DNA of 64,000 nt from Natrinema versiforme (GCF_005576615.1 NZ_CP040330.1:2232001-2296000); one strand, 5' to 3'; shown: positions 8,490 through 35,144, numbered from the stretch's first letter. Program-made: numbers and translations. The notes: a model not told the origin generated them from the sequence alone.

Positions 8490-9485
8490 ATGACCGAGAC
8501 GGACGACGAGCGAGGCGACGGGGAGGGACTCACCTACGCCGAAACCGGCGTCGACATCGAGGCGAGCGAGGACGCAACCGCGGCGCTGCTCGAGGCCTTC
8601 GGGAGCGGCCTACGGACCGAGTACGCCGGGATGATCGACATCGGCGACCGGTATCTCGCGCTGGCGACCGACGGCGTCGGCACCAAGCTACTGGTCGCCG
8701 AAGCGATCGAGGACTTCTCGACCATCGGCATCGACTGCATCGCGATGAACGTCAACGACCTCGTGGCCGCGGGTGTCGAGCCGGTCGCGTTCGTCGACTA
8801 CCTCGCGATCGACGAGCCCGACGAGGAGCTGACCAACCAGATCGGCGAGGGCCTCGCGGTGGGGCTCGAGCAGGCCGATCTCACCATGCTCGGCGGCGAG
8901 ACGGCGGTCATGCCCGAGGTCGTGAAAGGGTTCGATCTGGCGGGCACCTGTGCCGGACTCGCCGGCAAAGACGAGATCTTCGAGGGCGAGGCGCAGGTCG
9001 GCGACGCGCTCGTCGGGTTCCCCTCGAACGGCATCCACTCGAACGGGCTGACGCTGGCCCGCGAGGCCGTCACGCGAGACCACGCGTACACGGACGAGTT
9101 CCCGCTCGACCCCGAGCGGTCGATCGGCGAGGAACTGCTGCGGCCGACCCGGATCTACACGGACCTGCTCGAGCCGATGCGCGACCACGAGGTCCGCGCG
9201 GCGGCCCACGTCACGGGCGGGGGCTGGACGAACCTGCTGCGGATGGGCGACCGCGAGTACGCGATCGAGGACCCGCTCCCGGCCCAGCCGATCTTCGAGT
9301 TCGTCCAGCAGGAGGGGAGCGTGACCGACGAGGAGATGCACCGGACGTTCAACATGGGGACCGGGTTCGTCGTCGCGCTGCCCGAGGAACAGGCCGAGAG
9401 TCTCGTGGCCGAAACCGACGGACAGGTCATCGGCCGCGTCGCGGACGGCGACACCGTCGAGATTCGCGGGCTCTCGCTGTCCTGA
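8490..9485 (+). CDS. purM: Phosphoribosylformylglycinamidine cyclo-ligase (AIR synthetase)
   Basis: A 331-residue PurM, which closes the imidazole ring of FGAM to AIR with ATP in de novo purine synthesis. Diagnostic motifs are LTYAETGVDIEA, LATDGVGTKLLVAE, DCIAMNVNDLVAAGVEP, LGGETAVMPE, PSNGIHSNGLTLARE and AAHVTGGGWTNLLRM. The length is normal. The ATG at 8490 is chosen because the upstream frame is unrelated to PurM. No other pur genes are adjacent. Confidence 0.96.
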   Translation: MTETDDERGDGEGLTYAETGVDIEASEDATAALLEAFGSGLRTEYAGMIDIGDRYLALATDGVGTKLLVAEAIEDFSTIGIDCIAMNVNDLVAAGVEPVAFVDYLAIDEPDEELTNQIGEGLAVGLEQADLTMLGGETAVMPEVVKGFDLAGTCAGLAGKDEIFEGEAQVGDALVGFPSNGIHSNGLTLAREAVTRDHAYTDEFPLDPERSIGEELLRPTRIYTDLLEPMRDHEVRAAAHVTGGGWTNLLRMGDREYAIEDPLPAQPIFEFVQQEGSVTDEEMHRTFNMGTGFVVALPEEQAESLVAETDGQVIGRVADGDTVEIRGLSLS

Positions 9486-9822
9486 GAGCGGGGGTCTCTA
9501 TCGAGCGGCTCTCGAATTCGATCTCGAGCGGGAAACGCGAGAGCGCACGGTTCACAACTGACGGGCTCTTTTCAGACAGCTAGCAGTAGATATAAGGCAC
9601 AACAGGTCAACGAGTATACTGGAAGCCGCGCTCCGGAATCAGGGGGCTGTCTCGAAATGCCCCGGGTGCTAGAGCCACCCGAGACGTGGCTTCCATCCGA
9701 GCGGATTGAAGCCATGTTTGCGTTGATTCTTCCGGGATATAAACATCCCGCACGACGGCAGAATCGCCCGACACGGCCAGCGACAGCGTTGCAGCGCCGA
9801 TTACTCTCGCGGGGGAGACGGT
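9486..9822. other. Intergenic stretch without a supported gene
   Basis: About 340 bases with no convincing coding frame. It contains two short hairpins: cgggtg/cacccg around 9662-9681, and cgggat(9733-9738)/atcccg(9745-9750) with a 6-base loop. The minus-strand frame open across it is Arg/Ser-rich and looks like a shadow or decayed sequence. An insertion-sequence relic is possible but cannot be supported by eye. Confidence 0.4.
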
Positions 9823-9993
9823 ATGCGTAGCGGTCCCGACGAGAGCGCCGACGGCGACGGGATGTCATCGCTTCCCGACTGTCCGCGCTGTGGCAAGCCG
9901 GTCGGGTTCGTCACCGCGACCGGCCCCCTGACGGCCTCGGCCAGTCCCTGCGGCTGTTCGGTGCCGCCCGGACTGGTCCACCGAGACGACTGA
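9823..9993 (+). CDS. Small CPxCG zinc-finger-like protein
   Basis: A 56-residue protein (starts MRSGPDESADGDG). It has a CPRCGKPVGF knuckle and a second CGC cysteine pair about 25 residues later, a plausible four-cysteine zinc site. Short CPxCG proteins are abundant in haloarchaea and several affect motility, biofilm or stress responses; that is family-level knowledge only. It is well below common ORF length cut-offs. Coding bias (GC at third positions) and the paired cysteines support it. Confidence 0.6.
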   Translation: MRSGPDESADGDGMSSLPDCPRCGKPVGFVTATGPLTASASPCGCSVPPGLVHRDD

Positions 9994-10132
9994 CTCGGGG
10001 CTCGAGCCCCGACGATCGGCCGGTCGTTCGGCGATGGGGACCGAAACCACCACACCACCCCGCCGACATCGGTCGTCGAGCGGCCGGCTCGGAACCGGGG
10101 CCTCGAGTCACGGTCCGACTCGCTTGCTTCGA

Positions 10133-10190
10133 TTATTTCGAGCGTCCGATCTCCCCGGTCGCTGCCCGAATCGTGTCGTGCTCCTCGTCG
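10133..10190 (-). pseudogene. Detached 3' end of the macrodomain gene (left of the element)
   Basis: Read on the minus strand from 10190, this segment encodes DEEHDTIRAATGEIGRSK and then TAA at 10133-10135. The first codons lie within the 10-bp repeat shared with 15991-16000 and are in the same reading phase as codons 153-155 (Asp-Glu-Glu) of the macrodomain gene at 15955-16455. It is therefore the original C-terminus of that gene, cut off when the element integrated. Joining the two at the repeat restores an uninterrupted frame of about 170 codons. Confidence 0.85.
10181..10190. repeat. Left attachment repeat (attL core)
   Basis: The 10-bp sequence ctcctcgtcg is repeated exactly at 15991-16000. 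The two copies bound the AT-rich element, and the integrase operon starts 55 bases inside this end. Bases directly outside the 10 bp differ between copies, so the core appears to be exactly this length. Confidence 0.8.
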
Positions 10191-10200
10191 GAGTGGTTTG

Positions 10201-10247
10201 GACTATCTATAAGATTTATACACAAGGTGCTTCAATAGACTATCTAT
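10201..10247 (+). promoter_or_regulatory. Promoter of the regulator-integrase operon with a 10-bp direct repeat
   Basis: The decamer gactatctat occurs at 10201-10210 and at 10238-10247, the second overlapping the ATG at 10246. Between them is a TATA-like run (aagatttata). The repeat spacing is 37 bases. This arrangement would suit autoregulation by the first gene product, or integrase arm-site binding; both are inference. Confidence 0.45.
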
Positions 10248-10779
10248 GAGTGAGACAGTTCAGGTAAACTTGCGGGTTGAAGAAGAGAGGAAAGACGAGT
10301 GGCAAGAGTATGTGAGTGAGTCAGACGATTTTCAGACGCTTACTGATCTAATCAGGGTGTCTGTTAGCCAGCAGATGAGACGAGAGGAAGGAAAGGGAGT
10401 ATCTCAGAACATCAACGTAGATCTTGATCCACTCAAAGATGAAATGGGGGATATTCGTAATGTAGTCAAAGGATTGAGTGAGGAAATTGATGAGCTACGA
10501 CAGGTGAATGAGGCACTGATTGAGGAAAGTCAACAGACTCGAGATAGTGATTCAGAACGCTATCAGACTGTTCTGAGCCACGTCCCTAATGAGAAAAAGA
10601 CATCTTCCCCCACTGGACACCAAGTCTCTCGTTCAACAGCAGGGATGATTGCTGAGGAAACTGGTTATAACCGCTCAGCAGTTGACTACTATCTTGAAAT
10701 AGCAGTACAAGAGGGAGATATTTCTAAAGACACTGTTGATGGAGTTGTAGTCTACTGGAAGGGAGATGATGAGCAGTGA
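10246..10779 (+). CDS. Element-encoded DNA-binding protein (RHH-like N-terminus, helix-turn-helix C-terminus)
   Basis: A 177-residue protein. The N-terminus (SETVQVNLRVEEERKDEWQE followed by a segment ending LIRVSVSQQMRR) resembles the ribbon-helix-helix proteins often found before integrases in haloarchaeal elements. The middle is a coiled coil (MGDIRNVVKGLSEEIDELRQ). The C-terminus (MIAEETGYNRSAVDYYLEIA) looks like a winged-helix segment. Its stop overlaps the GTG start of the integrase, so the two are translationally coupled. A role as excisionase or copy/integration regulator is inferred from position. Codon use is AT-rich, unlike the host. Confidence 0.72.
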   Translation: MSETVQVNLRVEEERKDEWQEYVSESDDFQTLTDLIRVSVSQQMRREEGKGVSQNINVDLDPLKDEMGDIRNVVKGLSEEIDELRQVNEALIEESQQTRDSDSERYQTVLSHVPNEKKTSSPTGHQVSRSTAGMIAEETGYNRSAVDYYLEIAVQEGDISKDTVDGVVVYWKGDDEQ

Positions 10780-11765
10780 ATGTACTTGATGAGTTTTTGA
10801 GAAAAAAGAAGATCCGTGGGAAGAAATCTACCCATGCAAATTACAAATCCACACTTAGTCAATATTCAGAGTGGATTATGAATAATACTGAAAGAGGCAC
10901 ACTTATAGATGTATCTACAACAGATATTGAAGAATATCTTTATCATTTGTCTCAGGATGGGTACCGAACCAAATCAATCAGATCACAGTATACTGCTATT
11001 CGTTCCTTCTATAGTTGGATTGAAGAGCAAGATAGCAATTCCTCTGAAGATTTTAATTTAGGGAAAGATAGTTGGGAAAGCCCATGTGAATATATCAAAC
11101 CAAGTGAGATGAATATTCTCAACAACAAGGAGAAATCAATGAAAGCAGAGTATGGGGGTGAGAATATTTCTCTTTCATCAGAGGAAATCAACCAACTCAT
11201 AGAGAATGTACCTGAGCCAGTAACTCGGAATAAACTTCTTATCTCGATTATGGCAGAAACGGGTATGCGCCGACATGAGGCTCGAGACGTGAAAATAAAG
11301 AAGGTACGTATTGATGAAGGCCTTGTTACGATACCTGATAGTAAGACAGGTGAAAATAGAAAGGGTACCTTTGGATCAACTACAAAATCTCTATTGAGAG
11401 AATGGCTTATCTATGGTAAGAGAGATGGGTTTAAGCCCTCTATTAGATCTGATTACCTATTTCTCACAACTAAGTCAGAGAAAATGTCTGGCAAAAGAAT
11501 AAACGAGATAATCAAAGAAGCTGCCGACAATGCAGGTATCCAAGAAGTGATTGGACATGATAAGCGCGGAAATCCACGTTACAAAGTTACAGCCCACTCA
11601 CTGCGCCATTCATTTGGGATGAATCTCCTTGAGAAAGGACATGATATAAGAACAATTCAAGAGGCTCTTGGGCATGAAGATGTAGATACAACGGAAAAAT
11701 ATCTTGGATTGGATAATAAAGATGTGACTGATAGCATTAAGGCAAAAGGCCACTTCCTTGATTGA
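10776..11765 (+). CDS. Tyrosine recombinase / integrase
   Basis: A 329-residue site-specific recombinase. The N-terminal SAM-like core-binding domain spans residues ~1-100 (STHANYKSTLSQYSEWI, RSQYTAIRSFYSWI). The catalytic domain has Arg165 in TGMRRHEARDV, the HSLRH box with His274 and Arg277, His300 in ALGHEDVDTTEKY, and the nucleophile Tyr309. All expected catalytic residues are intact, so it may be active. It starts at a GTG that overlaps the previous stop. It lies next to attL and probably recombines the 10-bp core within the macrodomain gene. Confidence 0.93.
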   Translation: MNVLDEFLRKKKIRGKKSTHANYKSTLSQYSEWIMNNTERGTLIDVSTTDIEEYLYHLSQDGYRTKSIRSQYTAIRSFYSWIEEQDSNSSEDFNLGKDSWESPCEYIKPSEMNILNNKEKSMKAEYGGENISLSSEEINQLIENVPEPVTRNKLLISIMAETGMRRHEARDVKIKKVRIDEGLVTIPDSKTGENRKGTFGSTTKSLLREWLIYGKRDGFKPSIRSDYLFLTTKSEKMSGKRINEIIKEAADNAGIQEVIGHDKRGNPRYKVTAHSLRHSFGMNLLEKGHDIRTIQEALGHEDVDTTEKYLGLDNKDVTDSIKAKGHFLD

Positions 11766-11853
11766 CATCTAACAGCCTTATAGCGATTTCTAAGCGGGTC
11801 CTCATACAAGTGAGACACATATATCAGACATATCTCTGGAAACGTAGTGAGGA

Positions 11854-12222
11854 CTATTCTATATCCGTTACTCCAATAGATACATACAATTTATCATCTC
11901 TATCATTGATATCATTGACAAGACCACTGATAGTGAGACAAGATCCTGTTTCAGTTTCATCAATCTTCTGATGGTATCTACTGGGGATTTCACCACTCAC
12001 GTACACTTGATCACCAGAAAAGGTGATTGAAGATCCATCAAGTGCCTTCCCTTGTAGACTTCCAGTGATAGTTTTCTGGCTACCCAGATCGTCTTCCTCG
12101 AGAGTATCAACATTGGAGTTACAGCCAAGTACTTCCCATGCTCCTACTCCAACTACAGTAGTACCACCAGCAGCACCAAGCAACTTGCGTCTTGTGACTC
12201 CCCTTTCGTCTAAGTCACCCAT
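11854..12222 (-). CDS. Tat-exported small protein of the element, possibly OB-fold
   Basis: A 122-residue protein starting MGDLDERGVTRRKLLGAAGG. A twin-arginine motif (TRRKLLG) is followed by a hydrophobic stretch and a Cys in EVLGCNSN that could serve as a lipobox, so export and lipid anchoring are likely. The mature part is short and beta-rich (KTITGSLQGKALDGSSITF, VYVSGEIPSRYHQK, SCLTISGLVNDINDRDDKLY), reminiscent of OB-fold domains of the tRNA_anti-like type; this is a weak resemblance. The start is placed at the ATG at 12222 rather than a TTG at 12234. It lies downstream of the tail-hub-like gene on the same strand. Confidence 0.68.
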   Translation of the reverse strand: MGDLDERGVTRRKLLGAAGGTTVVGVGAWEVLGCNSNVDTLEEDDLGSQKTITGSLQGKALDGSSITFSGDQVYVSGEIPSRYHQKIDETETGSCLTISGLVNDINDRDDKLYVSIGVTDIE

Positions 12223-12305
12223 GACCCAAGCCAAAACATTCAGTATAGATAGAGTTACTGGTTATTTGACTTTAGGATATTTCGGACAATAACCTCAGAG
12301 AATAA

Positions 12306-13604
12306 TCAGATACTCTTAGTGTTACTACTTACTTCAATATCGTCTTCAGACACTGTACTATTAACTCTAAGGTGGGTTTTCTGGAAAAACCTCTCTGTAT
12401 CTTCTTCAAAACCAATCCTATGAGTCACTTCATTGACTGTGTAGCCAAGTGAAGGTACATCACCCTCAAGGTTGTGAGCACAAGCTGGCTTTGTGTAGAT
12501 ATTATCGTGGGGATTGATGTAGGGAAATAGTCTTGTGACAACCTCACCTGTCCCTCCACCTTCAATGTGGTCAACAAGTTTTTCTATAGCCATATTCTGT
12601 GCCTCACCCTCATTGAAAGCATCTTCAACTTGAGTTGGCTTCTTATACTCTTGTCCAGCAAGTTTCTTTAGAGGTGGATATGTGGCTGTTGCAGTTGGAT
12701 ATTCACCACCTTCTTGGTTCACAAAGTCAGTGACTTTATCTATAGGGCCTTTGGTGGTCTTTCCATTAACAGTTATAGTGTTAACAGGTTGGATTTCGAA
12801 GAGAGCGTTGTTCTTAGAGACAGTTGGTGAAGGATTGTTGTTATCCCCATCTGCATTATTAGCATAGAAATGTCGCTCTCTTTCCTTGTCGTAAGCAAGT
12901 GAAATTTTACCCTGATCACTCCCATTTGGGGTGAAGTAAAATTCACCATTCACTTGCTTAGATACATACTTCATAGCGTCTTTCAGACTATGCTTATTCT
13001 CTTTGAAGGTCTTTACAGTACTTGCTCCAAGGAGATCACCAATAGGCTCTGCAATGGGCTTACCCCATGCTTCATACTCTTCTTCAATTTGGGTACTAAG
13101 AATTTGGTCTATTTGAGTATGAGCAACATCAGTGAAAATATCTTGATTCTCTTCAACCTTTGTTGCTATATCCTCGAGTATATCCCCTACTTTAGCATCA
13201 TAGTTGTAGCTCTTAGAGAAGGGTATTCCCTCAAGTAGTTGTGCTGGATCTGCAATACGCAATTTCCTCTCGAGAGTGCCTTTAGAGCCAGCACCCTGTG
13301 CTATAGGAAAGCCACGGTGATAAGTAATATATCTTGGATTATCAGGATCAGACTCAGGGTCAAGAAGTTTCACGTCAACAGGTTCCCAGATACTTTCCTT
13401 ATCCAGATCAAGGGCTTTGATTGCCTCAGAGATATCATGCCCTTGCCACTCAACAGGAAAGTAGACTTCAGTGAGCCTGTTGATATCCATTGGACCATCA
13501 ATTCTTGCTTTGGAGATTACACCTTCATTGATGGTGGGAATATCATTGCCATTGACCACTACCTTTGCAGGTGGATTACAAGGATATTCATAGTCATATG
13601 ACAT
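12306..13604 (-). CDS. Element structural-type protein, tail hub (gpD/late-control)-like
   Basis: A 432-residue soluble protein with no signal peptide or membrane segment. The N-terminus (PPAKVVVNGNDIPTINEGV) followed by VDVKLLDPESDPDNPRYITY, ERKLRIADPAQLLEGIPF and KVGDILEDIATKVEENQDIF resembles the first domains of phage tail-hub proteins. Those start with a beta-barrel, then an ad-hoc base-plate segment and a 'dil..ia' helix. HSLKDAMKYVSKQVNGEFYF repeats this pattern further on. This assignment is by pattern only and unverified. The gene starts 2 bases after the stop of a small Cys-containing ORF, so the two form an operon. AT-rich codon use marks it as element-derived. Confidence 0.6.
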   Translation of the reverse strand: MSYDYEYPCNPPAKVVVNGNDIPTINEGVISKARIDGPMDINRLTEVYFPVEWQGHDISEAIKALDLDKESIWEPVDVKLLDPESDPDNPRYITYHRGFPIAQGAGSKGTLERKLRIADPAQLLEGIPFSKSYNYDAKVGDILEDIATKVEENQDIFTDVAHTQIDQILSTQIEEEYEAWGKPIAEPIGDLLGASTVKTFKENKHSLKDAMKYVSKQVNGEFYFTPNGSDQGKISLAYDKERERHFYANNADGDNNNPSPTVSKNNALFEIQPVNTITVNGKTTKGPIDKVTDFVNQEGGEYPTATATYPPLKKLAGQEYKKPTQVEDAFNEGEAQNMAIEKLVDHIEGGGTGEVVTRLFPYINPHDNIYTKPACAHNLEGDVPSLGYTVNEVTHRIGFEEDTERFFQKTHLRVNSTVSEDDIEVSSNTKSI

Positions 13605-13606
13605 GG

Positions 13607-13810
13607 TTATTCCTCAGAGGTAACTTCTTCTGTCACAGTGTTACCTTCAAGATCTCTGTGAGTGATTTTGGTCGAATCACTTTCATCTGTACAACCATCA
13701 TCTTCGCAATCAGGAGCGTTTTCACACATAATATCCTCAAATCTGCTTCTTACTGCATCTCTTTGTTTACTCAGTGGATTTTCTGGATATCCATGACCAA
13801 TCCAACCTAT
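13607..13810 (-). pseudogene. Small Cys-containing ORF, probably the 3' remnant of a longer gene
   Basis: The open frame on the minus strand encodes GWIGHGYPENPLSKQRDAVR, then DIMCENAPDCEDDGCTDESD and ends in TEEVTSEE. It has protein-like composition throughout, yet the first ATG (at 13729) lies after the Gly/Trp/Tyr-rich part. A stop at 13811-13813 closes the frame upstream. Either a 40-residue protein (13607-13729) is made, or this is the 3' end of a gene whose front was deleted. The TAA is two bases before the ATG of the 432-residue protein. Confidence 0.4.
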
Positions 13811-13989
13811 TCACAAAGAATCGCTTAGGAACAAATCTCTGCTATACAGAGATATGAGCCAATGAGTGCAAGTTTGGCTCAGATACGTCAATTATACAAA
13901 ACTGCAAATAATATGGCTACAAAGAAAATACAAACCCAACATATAGAATAGAACTACAGATATGACTGATATTGGCGACTTAGATTGAG

Positions 13990-14268
13990 TTACTGACCTA
14001 TCTCAAATTTGTTCATCTGCATACTGACTGCTACCTTGCTACAATCAAGCTCCTCAGCAATTTCCTTCTTTGTGAGGCCAAATGAGTAGTACAGCTTGTG
14101 GAGGACTTCTTTTTCCTTTAGAGGTTTTTCGATATCAGAGAGATCTCCTAATCCCTCAATCTCAATAGGATCATCTTCATCCTCAGTAGAGACTTCTTGG
14201 TCCCCTCTGTAATTCACTTTAGATTTTCCATCACGATTTCGAGTAATCTTCCTAATATTCCGCTTCAT
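13990..14268 (-). CDS. Small HTH DNA-binding protein of the element
   Basis: A 92-residue protein with a basic N-terminus (MKRNIRKITRNRDGKSK), an acidic linker and a C-terminal helix-turn-helix. The HTH (HKLYYSFGLTKKEIAEELDC followed by SKVAVSMQMNKFEIG) is close to sigma-70 region 4/TrmB-like forms. It is probably a transcriptional regulator of the element. It lies upstream of and on the same strand as the tail-hub-like gene. Codon use is AT-rich like its neighbours. Confidence 0.72.
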   Translation of the reverse strand: MKRNIRKITRNRDGKSKVNYRGDQEVSTEDEDDPIEIEGLGDLSDIEKPLKEKEVLHKLYYSFGLTKKEIAEELDCSKVAVSMQMNKFEIGQ

Positions 14269-14840
14269 ATATGAAACGTATTAGTTAGTATATTCTCAAG
14301 ATACTTAAAAGTTTTGTATAAGGTATTGTAATAATATAAGGCCAGACATGGCTGAGTAATTATAATACACTGAGCCCCATCAATAGCAGAGTTAGAGACA
14401 AAACCACTGTACCCCAATTGTCGTGGCTTGATATATAAAATAATTTTTAGAAATAAAACCACCCATCTGATCTAACCCTATGGCTATTGCGACGGGGTGT
14501 ATTGAGTCAGATATATTCTACCCAGAGAGGGACTTGTCGATCCCCTCAACCCGCTGCCGTGGTAACGCCTTTCCAACCTACATTTGACGGGGTACCTTCA
14601 TCCACCTGTCTCGAGACAATAGTATGGCTCATAGACAAGTGTACTATCACTCTGTGAGTGATTGCACGACTGTTGTGGTATCTCTCCATGAGATATTCCT
14701 AAGTATCAAAGCAGTAACTGAAATCACTGTAATCCAGAGTCAGGTAACAAACTACCAATTGATGTGAGAAACATTGATTAATCCCTTACTTGTATGTGTC
14801 CAAAATATTATGACTGTCGGGTTTCTACGGATATGTGTTG
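14269..14840. other. Gene-poor region of the element
   Basis: About 570 bases without a convincing gene; a 65-codon minus-strand frame here is Tyr/Ile-rich and looks like a chance reading. Composition is mixed, with a GC-richer patch at 14520-14620. One perfect hairpin is present, atcactc (14646-14652), loop tgt, gagtgat (14656-14662). This could hold control sequences or a replication origin of the element, but nothing specific can be shown. Confidence 0.4.
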
Positions 14841-14996
14841 ATGAACTTATCAGCATGTGAGACGACAGAGTTGAAACGGGTTGATGATAACCAGATTAGT
14901 TCCAAAAGCCAGCAAGAGATTGATACAGAGCTATCAGAGTATCGTATGTTCGCGACACTCGAGGGTCAGTCAATTAACTTTGACCAGATCCTCTAA
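14841..14996 (+). CDS. Possible 51-residue element protein
   Basis: The short frame encodes MNLSACETTELKRV through SEYRMFATLEGQSINFDQIL and ends in TAA at 14994. It is hydrophilic and has a balanced composition resembling a real protein, unlike other short frames nearby. No family is recognised. It is on the same strand as the 75/89-residue protein that follows. Support is composition only. Confidence 0.35.
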   Translation: MNLSACETTELKRVDDNQISSKSQQEIDTELSEYRMFATLEGQSINFDQIL

Positions 14997-15089
14997 GTTA
15001 CAAAGCTAAACGTCAGATCGCTATAGATAGTTTTGGAGAGTGGTTTTCATCCCCTTGAGGTAGGGTAATAGCAGTGCAAACCCCTTTCC

Positions 15090-15122
15090 AGATCACTGAG
15101 TGAGTCAAAGAGACAGTGATCT
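15090..15122. promoter_or_regulatory. 9-bp inverted repeat before the small element gene
   Basis: The arms agatcactg (15090-15098) and cagtgatct (15114-15122) are perfectly complementary with a 15-base spacer, and are followed at once by the TATA-like ataaagg. It is an operator candidate, or a terminator for the preceding small frame. Confidence 0.45.
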
Positions 15123-15194
15123 ATAAAGGTTACAAAAACAATCTTTATTAAATTGATGAATAGATTTATTAATAATGGTCTTGTACCCAGATAT

Positions 15195-15422
15195 ATGTCT
15201 CAGTCAGTAGTTGCTAATGACGATACGGAAAATCCCTGTAGCCAAGGTCAAGTCATGGATTTTCTTATTAACCAAGATATCGCTGAGTATTCAGATCCAT
15301 GTCTAACACTCAGAGTCAACTCAATCAGTAGCAATGATATTGAACAGTTGCAGGATATGGGGTGGAAAGCAGAGGTCTATCACGACAATGGAGAGACATT
15401 AGTAACTGTTCATCAGATGTAA
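15195..15422 (+). CDS. Small hypothetical element protein
   Basis: A 75-residue protein from the ATG at 15195 (MSQSVVANDDTENPCSQGQV); an in-frame ATG at 15153 would give 89 residues. The C-terminal part (CLTLRVNSISSNDIEQLQDM followed by GWKAEVYHDNGETLVTV) reads like a small alpha/beta domain. No known family is recognised. It is the last recognisable gene before the nested palindrome and the right end of the element. Confidence 0.5.
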   Translation: MSQSVVANDDTENPCSQGQVMDFLINQDIAEYSDPCLTLRVNSISSNDIEQLQDMGWKAEVYHDNGETLVTVHQM

Positions 15423-15954
15423 CTCGAGAGAATGGTCAGTGATATGTTTCCAGTTTCTATTCTAAGGCACTTCATTTAATCCTCATTGGATTCTTTTCTA
15501 TCCTAAGTGGATTTCATCGTCTTAGGGTAAGAAACTCTCACAGACAATCCTATAGACTTCAGTAACTCAGAGATATGGGCATGAAGAACCATTGTAAATG
15601 AGGAAGATGAAAGGGGGACTATAGGGGGTTAGTAAGATGGAGTGCTGTAGTGGTATGTCTTGCTGTAATGTCTATGGTGAGGCTGTATCACTTAGGTTGT
15701 CACTCCGCTCCGTAGCAGTACTTCAGCACAGCAGTACTGCTTACGGTGCTCATTCAACCTTACGTTCACAGCCTCATAGTCACAACTCTGACGTAGGGAT
15801 TGGTGGTGATTGAGTTGGTTCCCCCTCTACTGCGGGATTGAGTTGTGATGGATGTGGCTGCTGTAGAGGATAGATCCCTGCCATTCCTTTCCATGATGGA
15901 GTGGATATGGGTTTGGTTAGTCTCAGAGACAGACCCCCATCCAGATCTACTACC
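15423..15954. other. Non-coding right end of the element
   Basis: About 530 bases without a supported gene, containing the nested palindrome (15672-15779). A second stem, cctctac/gtagagg, lies around 15823-15867 with a loop of about 30 bases. The stretch ends at the macrodomain stop codon and attR. Confidence 0.5.
15672..15779. repeat. Large nested imperfect palindrome
   Basis: Three complementary arm pairs share one centre. Outer: ctatg(gtg)aggctgt at 15672-15686 with acagcctcatag at 15768-15779. Middle: aggttg at 15694-15699 with caacct at 15755-15760. Inner: ccgtagcagtact at 15710-15722 with agtactgcttacgg at 15733-15746 (one bulged base). The whole 108 bp could form a cruciform or a structured RNA. 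It lies about 210 bases from attR, outside any gene. Confidence 0.7.
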
Positions 15955-16455
15955 CTACTTGTCTATACAATGTGTAGATATAACTGATTCCTCCTCGTCG
16001 CTGTAGGCGATGAGCCGCACGTCCTCGAGCGTGTCCGGCTCGTAACCTGCAATCTCCTCGCCGATAATCTCCGCACCCGCCGCGAGGTCGAACCCGGCGA
16101 CACCACAGCCCAGCGCTGGCAGTACGAGCGACCGACAGCCCAGTTCGTCGGCCCGCCCGAGGCTGTTGTGAGTCGCGTCGCGGATGCTGTCCGCGGTCGC
16201 TTCGCCGCTCCCGTAGTGGGGCATCGCCGCGGCGTGGATGACATACTCGGCGTCGAGGTCGTAGGCGTCGGTGACCGCGACCGCGCCGAGGTCGATCGGG
16301 CCGTTTTCCATGGCGTCCTCGTTGATCGCCTCGCCCGCGCCGCGGCGGAGCGCGCCGGCGACGCCGGACCCCATTCGGAGGCTCGTGCCGGCCGCGTTGA
16401 CGAGCGCGTCGGCGGACTGTGCGGCGATGTCGCCCTGAACGACGTCGTACTCCAT
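15955..16455 (-). CDS. Macrodomain (ADP-ribose-binding) protein with element-replaced C-terminus
   Basis: A 166-residue macrodomain, which binds or hydrolyses ADP-ribose derivatives. Motifs are VVQGDIAAQSADALVNAAG, the loop RMGSGVAGALRRGAG, AAAMPHYGSGEA and VLPALGCGVAGF. The last 11 residues (ESVISTHCIDK) are encoded by AT-rich element DNA. The natural ending (after Asp-Glu-Glu at residues 153-155) is found at 10133-10180. The protein is probably still folded, because only the tail after the last core strand changed. The gene is the integration target of the neighbouring element. Confidence 0.9.
   Translation of the reverse strand: MEYDVVQGDIAAQSADALVNAAGTSLRMGSGVAGALRRGAGEAINEDAMENGPIDLGAVAVTDAYDLDAEYVIHAAAMPHYGSGEATADSIRDATHNSLGRADELGCRSLVLPALGCGVAGFDLAAGAEIIGEEIAGYEPDTLEDVRLIAYSDEEESVISTHCIDK
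15991..16000. repeat. Right attachment repeat (attR core) inside the macrodomain gene
   Basis: This is an exact copy of the ctcctcgtcg repeat at 10181-10190. It covers codons 153-155 (Asp-Glu-Glu) of the macrodomain gene plus the last base of codon 152, in the same phase as the left copy. AT-rich element sequence lies to its left and GC-rich host sequence to its right. Confidence 0.8.
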
Positions 16456-16530
16456 ATTCGAGACTGCCGGATCGAGAGCAATGAAACTGATCGTCGATTG
16501 GGTCCCTCGAGTCCGCCGCGAGTCGGCGAC

Positions 16531-16854
16531 TCAGTCCGTCCGAACCCAGTCGTCCCGAACTGGTCGGGGGACGATGTCGGCGTTTGCGATCCCGTAGAAT
16601 TTCTCGCGGCCGACCGGCGTCCGGAGCCGGAGGACGCAGGTGTAGTCGGTCACCTCGAAGGCTGTTACCGTTCGGGTAGACCGTTGATGAGCGAACCGAA
16701 AGAGCTGATTCGCCTCCGCGCCGGTGGTGACGCGATCGCCGAGCGGCCAACTCAGCGACTCGACGTATTCCAGCTCGATGTCGAACAGAGAAGCGATCAG
16801 GTCCCGACCGTGTCGGCCCATTGTTCCCTGTGACCGGTTCTCGTGTGAGCTCAT
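16531..16854 (-). CDS. Hypothetical haloarchaeal protein
   Basis: A 107-residue protein (starts MSSHENRSQGTMGRHG; a second ATG at 16821 would give 96 residues). The sequence has alternating polar/hydrophobic strands (YVESLSWPLGDRVTTG, FEVTDYTCVLRLRTPVG, KFYGIANADIVPRPVRDDW) suggesting a small beta-rich fold. No family is recognised. It lies 75 bases upstream of the macrodomain gene on the same strand and diverges from the iron-box gene at 17095. Confidence 0.55.
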   Translation of the reverse strand: MSSHENRSQGTMGRHGRDLIASLFDIELEYVESLSWPLGDRVTTGAEANQLFRFAHQRSTRTVTAFEVTDYTCVLRLRTPVGREKFYGIANADIVPRPVRDDWVRTD

Positions 16855-17045
16855 ACACCGAACGTTTCGCTCCGTCCCGAAAAAAGATGCTATTTCGCGT
16901 GGCCATCTCTCGCACGGACAACTCGGATCGCTCGAGCGAGAGCGTAGCGAAACACGCCGTCTCATCGCCTTTCCCAGTCGACTATCGTCGTCGGCGGCAA
17001 TCACACCAGTGATAGCAGTCGCACGAACCGCCTCGCCTCGCGATC

Positions 17046-17056
17046 TTAGGCTAACC
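17046..17056. promoter_or_regulatory. Distal iron-box half-palindrome (DtxR/Idr-like)
   Basis: The sequence ttaggctaacc matches the left part of the DtxR/SirR-family iron box used by haloarchaeal Idr regulators (consensus half ttaggctaac). It lies upstream of the TATA-like cctttttaga of the 17095 gene. The assignment is by consensus similarity. Confidence 0.5.
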
Positions 17057-17071
17057 AAAACCTTTTTAGAT

Positions 17072-17085
17072 TTAGGCTCGCCTAA
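17072..17085. promoter_or_regulatory. Proximal iron box, perfect palindrome (DtxR/Idr-like)
   Basis: The sequence ttaggctcgcctaa is a perfect 14-bp inverted repeat matching the DtxR-family core. It lies between the TATA-like element (about 17061-17068) and the ATG at 17095, where a bound repressor would block transcription. Together with the copy at 17046 it brackets the promoter. Iron-dependent control is inferred from established knowledge of Idr/SirR boxes. Confidence 0.65.
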
Positions 17086-17094
17086 CTCAACGTG

Positions 17095-17262
17095 ATGGAC
17101 GTACCCGCGCGCAGGCAGGACCCGGAACTCACCGAGGATATCGAGGAGCCGGCGGCGGTCGTGACCAGTCACGAGACCCGCCCCGGAAAGATCGTCTTTA
17201 CCGAACGAGATAACAACGACGGCTGGATCGCGACGGACCTGGCCGTCGACCTCGAGCCCTGA
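17095..17262 (+). CDS. Small iron-box-controlled protein
   Basis: A 55-residue acidic protein (starts MDVPARRQDPELTEDIEEPA, ends GWIATDLAVDLEP). Short proteins of this look are widespread in haloarchaea, but the function is unknown. A TATA-like run about 28 bases before the ATG fits a leaderless transcript, and two DtxR/Idr-like boxes surround it. The neighbour dpsA stores iron, so this small protein may belong to the iron response; that is inference. Confidence 0.6.
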   Translation: MDVPARRQDPELTEDIEEPAAVVTSHETRPGKIVFTERDNNDGWIATDLAVDLEP

Positions 17263-17390
17263 ACGCGTCGTTACTCGAGTCGATCGGTCCCGACCCAGTC
17301 CCGACTGCGAACGTCTCGCCGTTCTTCTCAGCCGCAAAAAACTGATTCGACGGTCCGGCGCTCGTCGACGCTATTCGTGTACGGCTCGGC

Positions 17391-17936
17391 TCAGTGGGTC
17401 GCTTCTTCGAGCACCAGCGTGTCGTCTTCGAGGTAGTGCTCGAAGTGGTGGCCGTCGTCCTCGAGCGTGACGAGGATCTCGCGCAGGATCTCGGCGGTCG
17501 CGGGATCGCCGAGGTTCTCTGCGAGTTCGATGCTGTCGCGCATCGACTCGATGATGTCGCCGTACATCTCGAGGTCGTTTTCGAACATCGTGCGGACGTC
17601 GTAGACGTCTTCGCCCTCGAATTCGACGGTGGCGCGTTCCTCCTGGTTCGACGGGCCGGAGACGGGGACGCCGCCGATCGCCTGTGCGCGCTCGGCGATG
17701 ACGTCTGCCCCTTCCTCGACGTGTTCGTACGCTTCCTCGAGGAACTCGTGGAGCGGCAGGAACTCGGCGCCCTCGACCACCCAGTGGTGTTTCTTCAGCT
17801 GGTGGTAGAGGACATAGGAGTTGGCGAGCTCCGTGTTCAGCGCGTCGACGATCTGCTCGGCCTTGTCTTGCTCGAGGCGAAGCGCGTTCTCCTCGACACT
17901 GTCAGCCGACTGGCGGACTGTCTTTTGGGTGCTCAT
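17391..17936 (-). CDS. dpsA: DNA starvation/stationary-phase ferritin-like protein DpsA
   Basis: A 181-residue Dps-family ferritin that oxidises Fe(II) with peroxide or oxygen, stores iron in a dodecameric cage and protects DNA. Signatures are LANSYVLYHQLKKHHWVVEG (ferroxidase His residues) and FLEEAYEHVEEGADVIAERA (acidic ligands). Haloarchaeal DpsA proteins have this length and start. A TATA-like cttaaag region lies about 30 bases before the ATG at 17936. It is monocistronic and close to an iron-box promoter. Confidence 0.95.
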   Translation of the reverse strand: MSTQKTVRQSADSVEENALRLEQDKAEQIVDALNTELANSYVLYHQLKKHHWVVEGAEFLPLHEFLEEAYEHVEEGADVIAERAQAIGGVPVSGPSNQEERATVEFEGEDVYDVRTMFENDLEMYGDIIESMRDSIELAENLGDPATAEILREILVTLEDDGHHFEHYLEDDTLVLEEATH

Positions 17937-17989
17937 CCTACTCCTTCATACACGCGCGCATCACTTAAAGGTTACCCATGCAGAAACAT

Positions 17990-18010
17990 TTCTTTGGTAT
18001 ACCTAAAGAA
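17990..18010. promoter_or_regulatory. Near-palindrome between dpsA and the aldehyde dehydrogenase gene
   Basis: The arms ttctttggta and tacctaaagaa are complementary apart from one extra base, with a perfect ggtatacc at the centre (17996-18003). It is placed about 55 bases upstream of the dpsA start and 130 upstream of the divergent dehydrogenase gene. An operator role is possible; nothing identifies the regulator. Confidence 0.4.
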
Positions 18011-18141
18011 TCGTTTCGTTATTGGGCGTTGCATTTGGATATCAGTCTCAATGAACGTATTGCCGAACGGCACCGTCAATATACTCTTTGTTTTTTCACC
18101 CCTGAGTAAACATTTTCAGTGCGGAGGTTCAAGGGACAGAT

Positions 18142-19611
18142 ATGGCAACGAGAATCGCACAGCGGCGAGAGCGGATCTACGTCGACGGCGAGTGGCTCGA
18201 GACCGACGACGAACTGTCGGTTTCGGACCTCGCCGAGGGCGAGACCTTCGCGCGGGTGGCCGCCGCGGGCCCGACGGAGGCTCGAACTGCACTGGCTGCT
18301 GCCCACGAGATCAAACCGGAACTGCGCGAGACCACGGTCGTCGAACGCGCCGAGTGGTGTGAGACGATCGCCGACGGACTGCGCGAGCGCGAGGAGGAAC
18401 TCGCCGAGGTCATCGTCCGGGAGGCGGGCAAACCGATCTCGTCGGCCCGCGGCGAAGTCGGACAGGCAGCCGAGCGCTTCGACCGCGCGGCCGAGGAAGC
18501 GCGCAACATCGTCAGCAAGGGCGAGTTCCGCGAGGGCTCGACGGCGGGCCACGAGGGCTGGCAGGCGATCGTCAAACACGAACCGATCGGTGCCGTCCTC
18601 TGTATCACGCCGTACAACTATCCGCTTGCGACGACGGCCCTGCAGGTCGCACCCGCGCTCGCGGCCGGCAACAGCGTCCTGCTCAAGCCCGCGAGCAAGA
18701 CGCCCATCTCGGCGGCGATCCTCGCCGATGTCATCGCCGATGTCGACGGCATCCCGGACGGCGCGTTCAACTTCGTCCCCGGCGAGGCCAGCGAGATCGG
18801 CGACCTCATGGCCGGCGACGACCGCATCAACGCGATCGCGATGACCGGCTCCTCGGGCGCGGGCAAACACGTCGCCCGCGAGAGCGGCATGGTCAACCTG
18901 CACATGGAACTGGGCGGGAACGCGCCGGCGATCGTCTTCGACGACGCCGACCTCACCGATGTCGCGGGCAACTGCGCGAAGGGATCCTTCAAGTACGCCG
19001 GCCAGCGCTGTTCGGCCATCTCGCGCGTGCTCGCCCACGAGTCCGTCCACGACGAGCTCGTCGAGCTGATCGACGGCCAGATGGACGCGTGGCAGGCCGG
19101 CGACCTCTTCGACGAGGACACCGCCTTCGGCCCGCTCATCAGCGAAGAACAGGCCGACTGGGTCGCCGAACTGGTCGACGACGCCGTCGAGAAGGGCGCG
19201 GAGATCGTCCGCGGTGGCGAGCGACGCGCGCCCGAGGGCGTGCCGGACGATCTGGCCGACCAGTTCTTCGAGCCGACGCTGCTCGCGAACGTCCCTCACG
19301 ACGCCCGCATCGTCGACGAGGAGCAGTTCGGCCCCATCGCCGCCATCACCACCTTCGAGGACGAGGACGAAGCCCTCGAGATCGCCAACAGTTCGGATCT
19401 CGCGCTCGACGCCGCGGTCTTCACGAGCGACTACAAGCGCGCGATGCGGATGGCAGAACGCGTCGACGCCGGCGCGGTCCGGATCAACGGCGCGCCGAGC
19501 CACGGTCTCGGCGACGTTCCGTTCGGCGGCAACAAGGACTCGGGCATCGGCCGCGAAGGGCTCGACGCCTCGATCCACGAGATGATGCGCGAGAAGAGCA
19601 TCATCCTGTAG
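18142..19611 (+). CDS. NAD(P)-dependent aldehyde dehydrogenase
   Basis: A 489-residue cytoplasmic ALDH that oxidises an aldehyde to the acid or thioester. The catalytic Cys290 is in AGQRCSAISR and the general-base Glu256 in NLHMELGGNAP. The cofactor loop is MTGSSGAGKHVA, and PYNYPLATTALQVAPALAAG and FGGNKDSGIGREG are also conserved. The overall look is close to the GapN/lactaldehyde/succinate-semialdehyde branch, so a role as non-phosphorylating GAPDH or a lactaldehyde-type enzyme is possible. The substrate is not fixed. It is monocistronic and divergent from dpsA. Confidence 0.92.
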   Translation: MATRIAQRRERIYVDGEWLETDDELSVSDLAEGETFARVAAAGPTEARTALAAAHEIKPELRETTVVERAEWCETIADGLREREEELAEVIVREAGKPISSARGEVGQAAERFDRAAEEARNIVSKGEFREGSTAGHEGWQAIVKHEPIGAVLCITPYNYPLATTALQVAPALAAGNSVLLKPASKTPISAAILADVIADVDGIPDGAFNFVPGEASEIGDLMAGDDRINAIAMTGSSGAGKHVARESGMVNLHMELGGNAPAIVFDDADLTDVAGNCAKGSFKYAGQRCSAISRVLAHESVHDELVELIDGQMDAWQAGDLFDEDTAFGPLISEEQADWVAELVDDAVEKGAEIVRGGERRAPEGVPDDLADQFFEPTLLANVPHDARIVDEEQFGPIAAITTFEDEDEALEIANSSDLALDAAVFTSDYKRAMRMAERVDAGAVRINGAPSHGLGDVPFGGNKDSGIGREGLDASIHEMMREKSIIL

Positions 19612-19674
19612 GTCGGCATCTACCACTGCCGGCCGTCACTATCGGCCCCGTCTCGAATCCGTCCGCGCCCGTGC

Positions 19675-32597: not shown

Positions 32598-32671
32598 GGG
32601 CCGGTAGCTCAGTCCGGCAGAGCGTCTGACTCTTAATCAGACGGTCGCGTGTTCAAATCGCGCCCGGCCCG
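32598..32671 (+). tRNA. tRNA-Lys (anticodon CTT)
   Basis: A 74-base cloverleaf. The acceptor gggccgg (32598-32604) pairs with ccggccc (32664-32670). The D-arm is gctcagtccggcagagc. The anticodon arm tctgactcttaatcaga carries CTT. The T-arm gcgtgttcaaatcgcgc follows, and G is the discriminator. CCA is not encoded. Two further copies of its 3' end follow downstream, marking it as an integration site. Confidence 0.95.
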
Positions 32672-32722
32672 CTTTTGCCACGAGCAAGTTCGCGAGTGGC
32701 AAAACGGTCGCCGCGATTTGAA
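32651..32722. repeat. tRNA 3' end plus facing inverted copy (unit 1)
   Basis: The tRNA T-arm sequence ttcaaatcgcg (32652-32662) is matched by an inverted copy cgcgatttgaa ending at 32722. Inside lies a second stem, ttttgccac (32673-32681) with gtggcaaaa (32696-32704). The whole forms a long hairpin immediately 3' of the tRNA, which could act in 3' processing or termination, or be the scar of a mobile unit. Confidence 0.6.
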
Positions 32723-32767
32723 TCGCAGGGAGGTTGCGCGCAACGCAGTGAGCACGTCCGACCGTGT

Positions 32768-32837
32768 GTTCAAATCGCGCCCGGCCCGCTTCTGCGAGGA
32801 ACAATTCGTGACGAGCAGAGCGGCGACCGCGATTTGA
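32768..32837. repeat. Second copy of the tRNA-Lys 3' end with inverted partner (unit 2)
   Basis: Positions 32768-32791 repeat exactly the 24 bases 32651-32674 (T-arm, acceptor 3' strand and two bases). An inverted ttcaaatcgcg again follows, ending at 32837, with an imperfect inner stem (cttctgc/gcagagc). The spacing from copy 1 is 117 bases. This looks like an attachment site duplicated by integration at the tRNA 3' end. Confidence 0.65.
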
Positions 32838-32896
32838 AGTAGACGAGTCGCAGCCCGCGAGCGAGTGTAACGAGCGAGCAGGAACGTCTCGGCGTA

Positions 32897-32920
32897 GTTC
32901 ATAATCGCGCCCGGCCGCTT
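32897..32920. repeat. Third, degraded copy of the tRNA-Lys 3' end
   Basis: The sequence gttcataatcgcgcccggcc and following gctt matches the 24-base tRNA 3' end with a few changes, 129 bases after copy 2. Its decay suggests it is the oldest copy. Past it the composition becomes less GC-rich up to about 35.4 kb, consistent with an old integrated segment. Confidence 0.55.
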
Positions 32921-33250
32921 CCTTCCTTCACGACTTTGAGTCACGCTAACCAGCAGACGGCGTGGGGATAGGCTCCGCGCCGACAGGATTCCCGTTTTAT
33001 TTGAGTTACCCAGTGAACGGCATCCGACAACGTCTGGTATCTAACCTGTAGTTCTCGCGCGCACATCTTCCTTCTGTTGGTCGATATCATCCCACGTCCT
33101 TCCCACAATGATAACTCAGACAAGTTCTCCGAGTTCGGCGTTTCTTGCTTAACAAGAAACGCCTCATCGGAACCGCAGAGGGAGGGAGTCAGGGAGGGAT
33201 GAATAGATCTTCCGAGAATAATCCTGATGGATCCATCTCTTTGATTCGGA
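32921..33250. other. Non-coding, decayed segment after the tRNA repeats
   Basis: About 330 bases with no supported gene. Frames open here (for example minus strand 32941-33276) read as low-complexity shadows. The sequence is less GC-rich than the host and leads into a relic SnoaL-like gene fragment. It is probably decayed insert DNA. Confidence 0.4.
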
Positions 33251-33421
33251 TGTCTAACAGGCAACTTCGTTCTCACTGTGAATGAAGGCGAATTTGCGGG
33301 TAATCACACTGCGTTCTACGACCTGTTCCGTATCGAAAACGGGCACATCGTCGAACACTGGGACATACTCCAAGAGATTCCATCGCGTGATGAGTGGGAG
33401 AATGATAACGGGAAATTCTGA
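33251..33421 (+). pseudogene. 3' relic of a SnoaL/NTF2-like protein gene
   Basis: Frame with GTG at 33278 reads GNFVLTVNEGEFAGNHTAFY, then DLFRIENGHIVEHWDILQEI and PSRDEWENDNGKF before TGA at 33419. This is the typical C-terminal half of SnoaL-like aldol-condensing enzymes of the nuclear-transport-factor-2 fold (the GNF-V-GEF-G-Y-D-F-R-GKI-EHWD-Q-P pattern). The N-terminal half is missing in any frame, so the gene is truncated. It lies in the decayed zone downstream of tRNA-Lys. Confidence 0.75.
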
Positions 33422-33573
33422 TAACAGAATGGACGACTCGTCCGGTCTTGGCCTCGGCTGCTTGGCCGACGGACTTGTATCAGGTTCTCTGGATAAAGCG
33501 CTTGTGTGGGGGACGTCTCGGTGAGAGCGTCGTTTCCGTACTGTACTATCGGGCTGGCATCGTTTATTGGACC

Positions 33574-34212
33574 TTAGTAGCCGACAGCGAGCTGGGTGTG
33601 GACCGCATCGTCAGTCTCCAATTCATCGGCAAACGCGATGGCGAAGTCCTCCATCGAAATGTGACTCTCACCATCCTCATCGGTAACGAGTTCGCCGTCT
33701 GCGGTTCGGTATTCGCCGGTGCGCTCACCCGGTTCGATTAGTGTCGCTGGTGCGATGTATGACCACTGGAGGTCATTGGCGTCGCGGATAATTTCGAGTG
33801 CATCGATATGCGCCTCTGCGATCGGGACGGCCTCCTCCGGGAATTCATCGGTGTCGACGAGCTTTGTATCCGGTCCCACGCTCAGCCCGCCTGCACCACC
33901 TGTCCACACTAGGCGGTCAACGTCCGCTTCACGAAGCCCTTCGATTACTGCCTCGGTCATCTCAGTGAGGATCTCAACGTCTGCGTCCTCTGCTGGACCC
34001 AAGGCGGATGCCACTGTGTCATGTCCTGCCGCGAGGGCGGCGATATCGTCAGGATCAGTCGCGTCACCAGCGACCGCTGTGAAGTCGGGATCGTCGATTC
34101 CGTCGATGTCTCCGCTTCGGGAGACGCCAGTCACTTTGTGCCCACGGTCGAGGAGTTCAGTTGCGATTCGTTGCCCGATTCGTCCGCTTGCGCCGAGTAG
34201 TAGCACGTTCAT
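33574..34212 (-). CDS. NAD(P)-binding SDR/NmrA-like oxidoreductase
   Basis: A 212-residue atypical short-chain dehydrogenase. The dinucleotide-binding loop is at the very N-terminus (MNVLLLGASGRIGQRIATEL). The NmrA/SDR-a5 pattern continues with AVAGDATDPDDIAALAAGHD, LVWTGGAGGLSVGPDTKLVD and WSYIAPATLIEPGERTGEYR. The canonical YxxxK is not seen, as is usual in this branch (NADP-dependent FMN/flavin-reductase-like). The ATG at 34212 is preferred over an upstream one. It diverges from an HxlR regulator, which probably controls it. Confidence 0.9.
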   Translation of the reverse strand: MNVLLLGASGRIGQRIATELLDRGHKVTGVSRSGDIDGIDDPDFTAVAGDATDPDDIAALAAGHDTVASALGPAEDADVEILTEMTEAVIEGLREADVDRLVWTGGAGGLSVGPDTKLVDTDEFPEEAVPIAEAHIDALEIIRDANDLQWSYIAPATLIEPGERTGEYRTADGELVTDEDGESHISMEDFAIAFADELETDDAVHTQLAVGY

Positions 34213-34283
34213 TGTTGTATGGGGTTTGCTGGTAATGTTCGCCCGGCACGCAGATACTGTGTCTGCGATGCCGGTCACATTAC

Positions 34284-34335
34284 CATACCTGATGTAGGTG
34301 CGTGACTGTTATATGGGTTAGCGAACATAGGTATG
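34284..34335. promoter_or_regulatory. Inverted repeat in the SDR/HxlR divergent promoter
   Basis: The arms catacct (34284-34290) and aggtatg (34329-34335) flank the TATA-like ttatatgg of the HxlR gene. Nearby, ggtcacat occurs twice in direct orientation (34273-34280 and 34340-34347). A location between divergent genes makes this a candidate HxlR binding region. Confidence 0.5.
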
Positions 34336-34349
34336 ACCAGGTCACATCG

Positions 34350-34685
34350 ATGTCATCGCAACAGTCACTTGAAGAGAAATACGCAGAGTGTCCGGTCGTG
34401 CAAACGCTCGAAGAGGTTGGGTCGCGGTGGCGGATGACGGTCATCCACGTGCTTCGGGAGGGCGATCTCCGGTTCAACGAACTCAAGCGGGCGACGGGTG
34501 CGAACTCTCAAACCCTGTCTCGCGTCCTCGATGATTTAGATGAGAAGGGCTACGTCACCCGGGAGGTTGAGGAAGAGAGCCCGGTCGCTGTCTACTACTC
34601 GCTGACCCCGAAGGGTGAAGAACTGCTCTCGGCATTCGATGCGATTTACGAATGGGGTGAGAAGTGGGTGATTGATGCAAAGTGA
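34350..34685 (+). CDS. HxlR-family winged-helix transcriptional regulator
   Basis: A 111-residue regulator. It starts with the family Cys motif region EEKYAECPVVQTLEEVGSRW. The winged helix follows (LREGDLRFNELKRATGANSQ then TLSRVLDDLDEKGYVTREV) and ends in VYYSLTPKGEELLSAFDAIY. HxlR proteins often sense electrophiles or oxidants through the N-terminal Cys and control an adjacent oxidoreductase. The ATG at 34350 is chosen; an upstream one adds 16 non-family residues. It diverges from the SDR gene. Confidence 0.92.
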   Translation: MSSQQSLEEKYAECPVVQTLEEVGSRWRMTVIHVLREGDLRFNELKRATGANSQTLSRVLDDLDEKGYVTREVEEESPVAVYYSLTPKGEELLSAFDAIYEWGEKWVIDAK

Positions 34686-34925
34686 TTTTCTGAGATTGAG
34701 CAGTGTATAGGTTGATGCGGGCCGATTTGATCAAAGGATCAGTGGGATTCTGCTGTATCGGTTCTCTACACTGATCAGTTAGACGGAATACTGAACGGTA
34801 ACTACATTTGTTTACTGGTCGCTTCATCCAAATACTGTTCTGAGGACAGTAGTGAATGAAGAAATCCATTCCGGCGTATTCAGAACCACCACCCCATTTT
34901 TATTAGTCGCGGATCAAACGGCGGT

Positions 34926-35144
34926 ATGGGCGTTCAAGACCACTTTGACTCAGACCTTCGATTCTACTATTCGATTGGAGTAGCCATTATTCTATTCTAC
35001 AGTACCGCAATCGCCACAGCAGCAATTTTAGATCTTGCTGTCATTGATAGTCGAATGATTCCACTTACAGTTGGGTTTTTCTTGTTCATGTTCGTCTACT
35101 TTATCTCGATAAGTGTACAGGCTCTCGAACCGGACAGTGTATAG
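34926..35144 (+). CDS. Small two-helix membrane protein
   Basis: A 72-residue protein with two membrane segments (YYSIGVAIILFYSTAIATAAIL and IPLTVGFFLFMFVYFISISV). A TATA-like ttttatt about 30 bases upstream fits the ATG at 34926. Codon use is more AT-rich than the host average, in keeping with the neighbouring island. No function can be assigned. Confidence 0.6.
   Translation: MGVQDHFDSDLRFYYSIGVAIILFYSTAIATAAILDLAVIDSRMIPLTVGFFLFMFVYFISISVQALEPDSV

Follow-up and report, generated by a model that had tools for sequence, protein, structure and literature searches.

A site-specific integrative element exchanges the C-terminal end of a macrodomain gene in a Natrinema genome

The 64-kb stretch of a Natrinema genome analysed here (G000:C2:2232001-2296000, hereafter the window) contains an AT-rich element of 5,810 bp (positions 10181-15990) that is flanked by exact 10-bp direct repeats and lies within a macrodomain gene. 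Our data indicate that this site-specific integrative element gave the macrodomain gene a new tail, and that its site was probably chosen by DNA sequence and not by the function of the macrodomain, a reading to which we assign a probability of about 0.93. The locus offers a clean haloarchaeal case, proven down to the single base, in which a mobile element rewrites the C-terminus of a host protein but keeps its gene open.

The two copies of the repeat, CTCCTCGTCG, form the left (10181-10190) and right (15991-16000) attachment (att) cores, to which no strand is assigned, and the right copy encodes (S)-D-E-E in the reading frame of the macrodomain gene. GC content drops from ~0.67 outside to 0.39-0.46 between the repeats and recovers beyond them, sharply at both ends. 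The 10-mer occurs eight times in the GC-rich window when both strands are counted, so the repeat alone is weak evidence, and it is the empty site that provides the proof. Both flanks align to one contiguous stretch of N. versiforme JCM 10478 (L095) with 92.5% identity each, the left one (window 9176-10190) up to L095:10456 and the right one (window 15991-19617) from L095:10465, with an overlap of exactly 10 bp that is the repeat itself; the left core coincides with the breakpoint. Base-level alignment gave GCCTACAG-CGACGCGGAG-TACGACACGATTCGGGCAGCGACCGGGGA for the empty-site junction of JCM 10478, GCCTACAG-CGACGAGGAG-GAATCAGTTATATC for the right junction of the element and AACCACTC-CGACGAGGAG-CACGACACGATTCGGGCAGCGACCGGGGA for its left junction. 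The empty state is also present in N. zhouii, N. salsiterrestre and others, and the repeat found at both ends of the element is single-copy in the empty sites of JCM 10478 and other Natrinema. The insertion at the macrodomain gene is thus confirmed by the empty site, and no second copy of the element was found in the same genome. An earlier note, made from this DNA alone, had described an integrative element in a protein gene and bounded the affected region at 10133-16000, and the repeats, the GC profile, the 10-bp overlap and the integrase bear it out.

The inserted form of the macrodomain gene (15955-16455, minus strand; PF01661, E 4.4e-27) encodes 166 aa, comprising 155 host residues followed by ESVISTHCIDK, whose 11 codons and stop are supplied by the element (15955-15990, minus strand). 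The native 3' end, 15 codons (HDTIRAATGEIGRSK) and a stop, now lies beyond the left repeat (10133-10180, minus strand) and matches the C-termini of orthologues. When the window flanks are joined, a 170-aa macrodomain protein ending DEEHDTIRAATGEIGRSK / SDEEHDTIRAATGEIGRSK results, and the JCM 10478 orthologue ends SDAEYDTIRAATGEPEHSN. Over the first 155 codons, the two genes differ by 24 silent and 15 replacement codons, with no stops. In our orthologue set (~109 haloarchaeal loci from two collections, with some species counted twice), the native helix is kept at the C-terminus of every locus, with the consensus DEEYETI/VRxA. The phase of both repeats, the restored 170-residue protein, the 11 foreign residues and the continuation of the uninterrupted gene into the displaced codons had all been anticipated in the earlier note, and each is what we found; the divergent orthologue C-termini that could have overturned the proposal were absent, and "swap", the word chosen there, is the right one.

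The insertion is 3'-distal, and the reading frame is kept open by the element-encoded end and stop. We considered whether the new tail mimics the native helix; against a profile of native tails it ranked among the best 9% of random peptides drawn from the element, which is not significant, and this idea was rejected. Since the old and new tails are unrelated in sequence, the gene is best read as re-terminated and not rebuilt, unlike with integrases that carry a copy of their own target. In the closest solved relative, Thermus TTHA0132 (2dx6, 159 aa), residue 155 aligns to residue 159 of the query, so it is the last helix that is exchanged. For the inserted form, AlphaFold2 predicted a helix at 153-163 with modest overall confidence, the predicted local distance difference test (pLDDT) score being 71 overall, 86-92 over residues 121-160 and 70 over the last six residues. 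Although its last helix is altered, the inserted macrodomain is probably folded and at least partly active.

Based on these data, we propose that a circular 5.8-kb form of the element would have entered the chromosome through site-specific recombination by its tyrosine recombinase, its 10-bp core pairing with an identical stretch at codons 152-155 of the 170-codon macrodomain gene. Such an exchange would leave the first 155 codons in place and end the gene with 11 codons and a stop from the element. The 15 codons that formed the native end would come to lie at the opposite side of the element, and excision by the same integrase would be expected to restore the original gene. The site was probably picked for its DNA sequence, as may be the case in related elements that enter conserved stretches of unrelated protein genes (see below).

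The left end of the element encodes a 177-aa ribbon-helix-helix (RHH)-like regulator (10246-10779, plus strand) and, overlapping it by 4 bp, a 329-aa tyrosine integrase (10776-11765, plus strand; PF00589, E 3.7e-35; PF13495). The regulator has no Pfam match, so its label is a putative one; its homologues lie directly upstream of related integrases. All catalytic motifs of a tyrosine recombinase (R, HxxR, LGH and Y) are present in the integrase, as TGMR, HSLRHSF, LGH and YLG, and its gene is intact within the element, not split as expected for a suicidal (SSV-type) integrase. The only tRNA gene in the window is that for tRNA-Lys at 32598-32672, outside the element.

To place this integrase, we compared 30 other haloarchaeal loci with related integrases (28-36% identity), which were sampled by similarity and include some nearly identical integrases, so that counts across loci are not independent. 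An RHH-like gene lies directly upstream of the integrase gene in nearly all of them (hereafter RHH-Int elements), GC content drops near the RHH start, and no tRNA was found within 1.5 kb of any of the 30 integrase loci. Exact repeats of at least 11 bp link the RHH edge to the far-side rise in GC content in 16 of the 30 loci, compared with 0.8 expected from left-zone shuffles over all loci. Joining the relatives' sites gave open frames, and a Pfam match spans the joined junction in six cases, namely T2SSE (L084), TctA (L087 and L205), HhH-GPD (L091), TspO (L200) and ABC2_membrane (L212), while a PADLOC match to a type IIG restriction enzyme does so in one (L080). The L202 insertion also appears to fall in TctA; there, a 13-bp repeat was set aside on inspection for a 15-bp one encoding, on the other strand, the TctA motif NTVFA. 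Targets shared among the related integrases are TctA (L087, L205), ABC2 (L203, L212) and an RHH gene (L079, L082), and insertions at the 5' end occur at L079, L082 and L213. The interrupted host proteins of the relatives usually end 4 to 20 residues past the junction; most of these insertions are therefore truncations, of which the 3'-end insertion in the window is a mild case. Insertion into protein genes thus appears to be the rule for the RHH-Int integrase family, and the family, by usually entering protein genes and often truncating them, may repeatedly cause haloarchaeal genes to be lost or switched.

The earlier note had regarded protein-gene integration as less usual than tRNA integration, which holds for archaea overall; such integration has nonetheless been published (PMC6563490) and is the apparent rule in this integrase family. 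The window integrase itself forms a long branch whose sister is L083 (94/93). Near-identical integrases were found across genomes of different families (L197/L198 and L079/L081/L082), suggesting recent transfer of RHH-Int elements. A limited literature search found no paper describing RHH-Int elements as protein-gene specialists or a recurring lone hub.

Several points weigh against the proposed reading. Only one occupied site was found at the macrodomain gene among the ~109 loci, and the crossover point is not placeable within the 10-bp core. Excision, and with it the present mobility of the element, is a prediction. The repeats of the relatives mark plausible insertion sites, and the strength of assignment varies by locus.

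The least expected feature of the element is its cargo, a 432-aa protein (12306-13604, minus strand) that matches the baseplate hub of HATV-2 (tblastn, E 3e-4). Its predicted structure (pLDDT 74) matches the folds of VgrG, contractile-injection hubs, T4 gp27, Mu gp44 and haloviral proteins, and a homologue lies in a full myovirus-like provirus of another genome (G008) among tail and baseplate genes, whose roles were read from gene order and sequence. That provirus is present in two copies (L193 and L194; G008:C1, 573000-592900 and 645000-664900) that are identical over at least 19.7 kb and lie ~72 kb apart. The hub homology, together with the lack of a recognised replication gene in family searches of the element's open reading frames (ORFs), would fit a decayed tailed provirus in which an integrase, regulators and one tail gene were left by chance. 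Looking for a tailed provirus (Caudoviricetes), we recognised the hub-like tail gene alone and no head, portal or terminase gene. Yet the named ORFs are open and the element ends intact, and lone hubs recur in ~9 other genomes or places, in elements of ~5-14 kb with other integrases, several of which carry a DUF1424 Rep, a helix-turn-helix (HTH) gene and an integrase, a pattern unlikely to arise from repeated random decay. We therefore regard decay as a possible but unlikely origin.

These lone-hub loci (L076, L077, L078, L089, L090, L175, L176, L178 and L195) are small AT-rich integrated elements in several haloarchaeal genera, some of which sit at tRNA genes (L076 and L078 at tRNA-Ser). As the hub is found with various integrases and at various sites, it is cargo common to different backbones. 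At L177, a tape-measure-like gene adjoins the hub. The window's own genome holds a second lone-hub element of ~8.4 kb (L078:8596-17101; G000:C2, ~2.40-2.41 Mb), which lies between two tRNA-Ser (TGA) copies and carries a 626-aa hub homologue and integrase genes. No close relatives of the integrase or the hub were found in IMG/VR, for which the hub alignment is too divergent, and searches of plasmid and phage records with the hub and the RHH-like protein returned only HATV-2, weakly. No homologue of the baseplate-J protein of the G008 provirus was found in the window's own genome, a weak negative.

The hub may serve satellite use, may poison helper tails or may be a plain relict, and as a sign of a virus satellite it is suggestive only. 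Haloarchaeal virus satellites are the topic of a 2025 Nature Microbiology paper (10.1038/s41564-025-02149-7), as cited in PMC13107129, and the recurring lone tail-hub gene offers a tangible starting point in the search for satellites of tailed viruses of archaea. A broader and rather doubtful extension would make RHH-Int elements a class of small mobile elements of haloarchaea that specialise in protein genes, entering them at conserved stretches, and that act as reversible gene switches upon excision, with the hub-bearing subset being satellites that hijack or poison the tails of archaeal tailed helper viruses.

The earlier note had also suggested that targeting a macrodomain gene may be meaningful, given the link of ADP-ribose-binding proteins to phage defence. 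In a fuller form of this idea, the macrodomain would be targeted for a role of ADP-ribose hydrolysis in defence against viruses, with the tail swap tuning or disabling a defence protein to the benefit of the element. Macro domains are known in defence systems such as DarTG, the window protein has a weak match to DarG, and one related element among many sits in a type IIG restriction gene (L080). This L080 element (G234:C6), ~9.9 kb long and of the RHH-Int type, is bounded by repeats at 6766 and 16660 and lies at the YNGGLF motif of a type IIG restriction-modification (or DrmMI-like) gene. The DarG match, however, is to a generic macro domain only and reaches 32 of 250 bits, far under the cut-off, and reading the sequences of the flanking ORFs by eye, without a model search, revealed no DarT-like neighbour; the macrodomain gene was thus rejected as a DarG-type antitoxin or defence gene. 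Moreover, the gene stands alone and is widespread, being present in 48 of the 61 sampled genomes, the other RHH-Int targets are transporters, TspO, an AlkA-like glycosylase and T2SSE, and the last helix is the sole part of the macrodomain that is changed. Targeting for defence is thus highly improbable, and choice of the site by its DNA sequence is preferred.

Repeat-mediated deletion in the relatives, as reported for Haloquadratum (PMC3119063), would suit a 10-bp repeat, which is within the size range of such deletions, but can be practically dismissed, because the element has a foreign base composition with an integrase at its edge, the gene is uninterrupted in all orthologues from many genera, a phylogenetic spread of the empty state that contradicts deletion, and no integrase above ~34% identity was found among the other genomes searched from the family.

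Replacement of a gene tail by an archaeal integrative element has already been published, and the event in the window is a known sort of insertion. Among thaumarchaeal elements, 14 of 68 are integrated in 3'-distal parts of protein genes (PMC6563490), and NitEve-E2 of Nitrososphaera evergladensis replaced the last 8 nt of its host gene with its own stop (Krupovic et al. 2019, PMC6563490). Like the window element, NitEve-E2 lies 3'-distally in a protein gene of an archaeon, has a short att site (13 bp) and replaced the gene end and stop with the frame left open. Different from NitEve-E2, which has another backbone and exchanged 8 nt of a Zn-finger gene, the window element exchanged 45 nt and the stop for 33 nt and a stop in a haloarchaeal macrodomain gene.

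Archaeal att sites of only 8-14 bp have been described before (PMC8371274). The SNJ2-type integrases of haloarchaeal pleolipoviruses (PMC8371274) resemble that of the window in being XerA/C-like tyrosine integrases with a SAM-like N-domain and short att sites (13-14 bp there), encoded in an operon with small regulators; in the window, however, the integrase gene is preceded and overlapped by an RHH-like gene, the element sits in a protein gene, and none of its genes was recognised as pleolipoviral. Haloarchaeal tRNA-gene integrases (HF2-related, HVO_2815A; PMC3119063) are likewise encoded at one edge of an island that has direct repeats on both sides, but the repeat there is long and tRNA-derived (43 nt in Haloquadratum), whereas that of the window element is 10 bp inside a protein gene. 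Indels touching at most a few C-terminal residues were listed in the Haloquadratum comparison (PMC3119063). Prophages with active lysogeny, such as phiSa3 in hlb (PMC6597384), also insert into a coding gene that is expected to be restored on excision; different from these prophages, of which regulated excision is a feature, the window element leaves its gene open with a changed tail.

The remainder of the element encodes a small protein whose start, as read from its sequence, resembles a Tat twin-arginine motif and a lipobox (RRKLLGAAGG...LGC) (11854-12234, minus strand; no family match), a 40-codon Cys-containing ORF known from translation only, which ends 2 bp before the hub gene (13607-13729, minus strand), a 92-aa HTH protein (13990-14268, minus strand; PHROG 8446, E 1.4e-7, with weak GerE and Sigma70_r4 matches) and an 89-aa ORF with no family match (15153-15422, plus strand). 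A similar HTH protein is encoded in another hub-bearing element (L089, E 1e-4). Scans for sigma-70 promoters and terminators gave no excess over shuffles, with models that are not suited to archaea. Two exact copies of the 12-bp repeat ACTATCTATRAG (10202-10213 and 10239-10250, plus strand), the second overlapping the start codon of the RHH-like gene, are candidate operators of this gene, and a degenerate copy with two mismatches near the other end of the element (15020-15031, minus strand) is a further candidate. Elsewhere in the window, GC content dips to 0.52-0.54 at 33-35 kb (32598-35000), starting just past the tRNA-Lys gene, and this region could be another integrated element.

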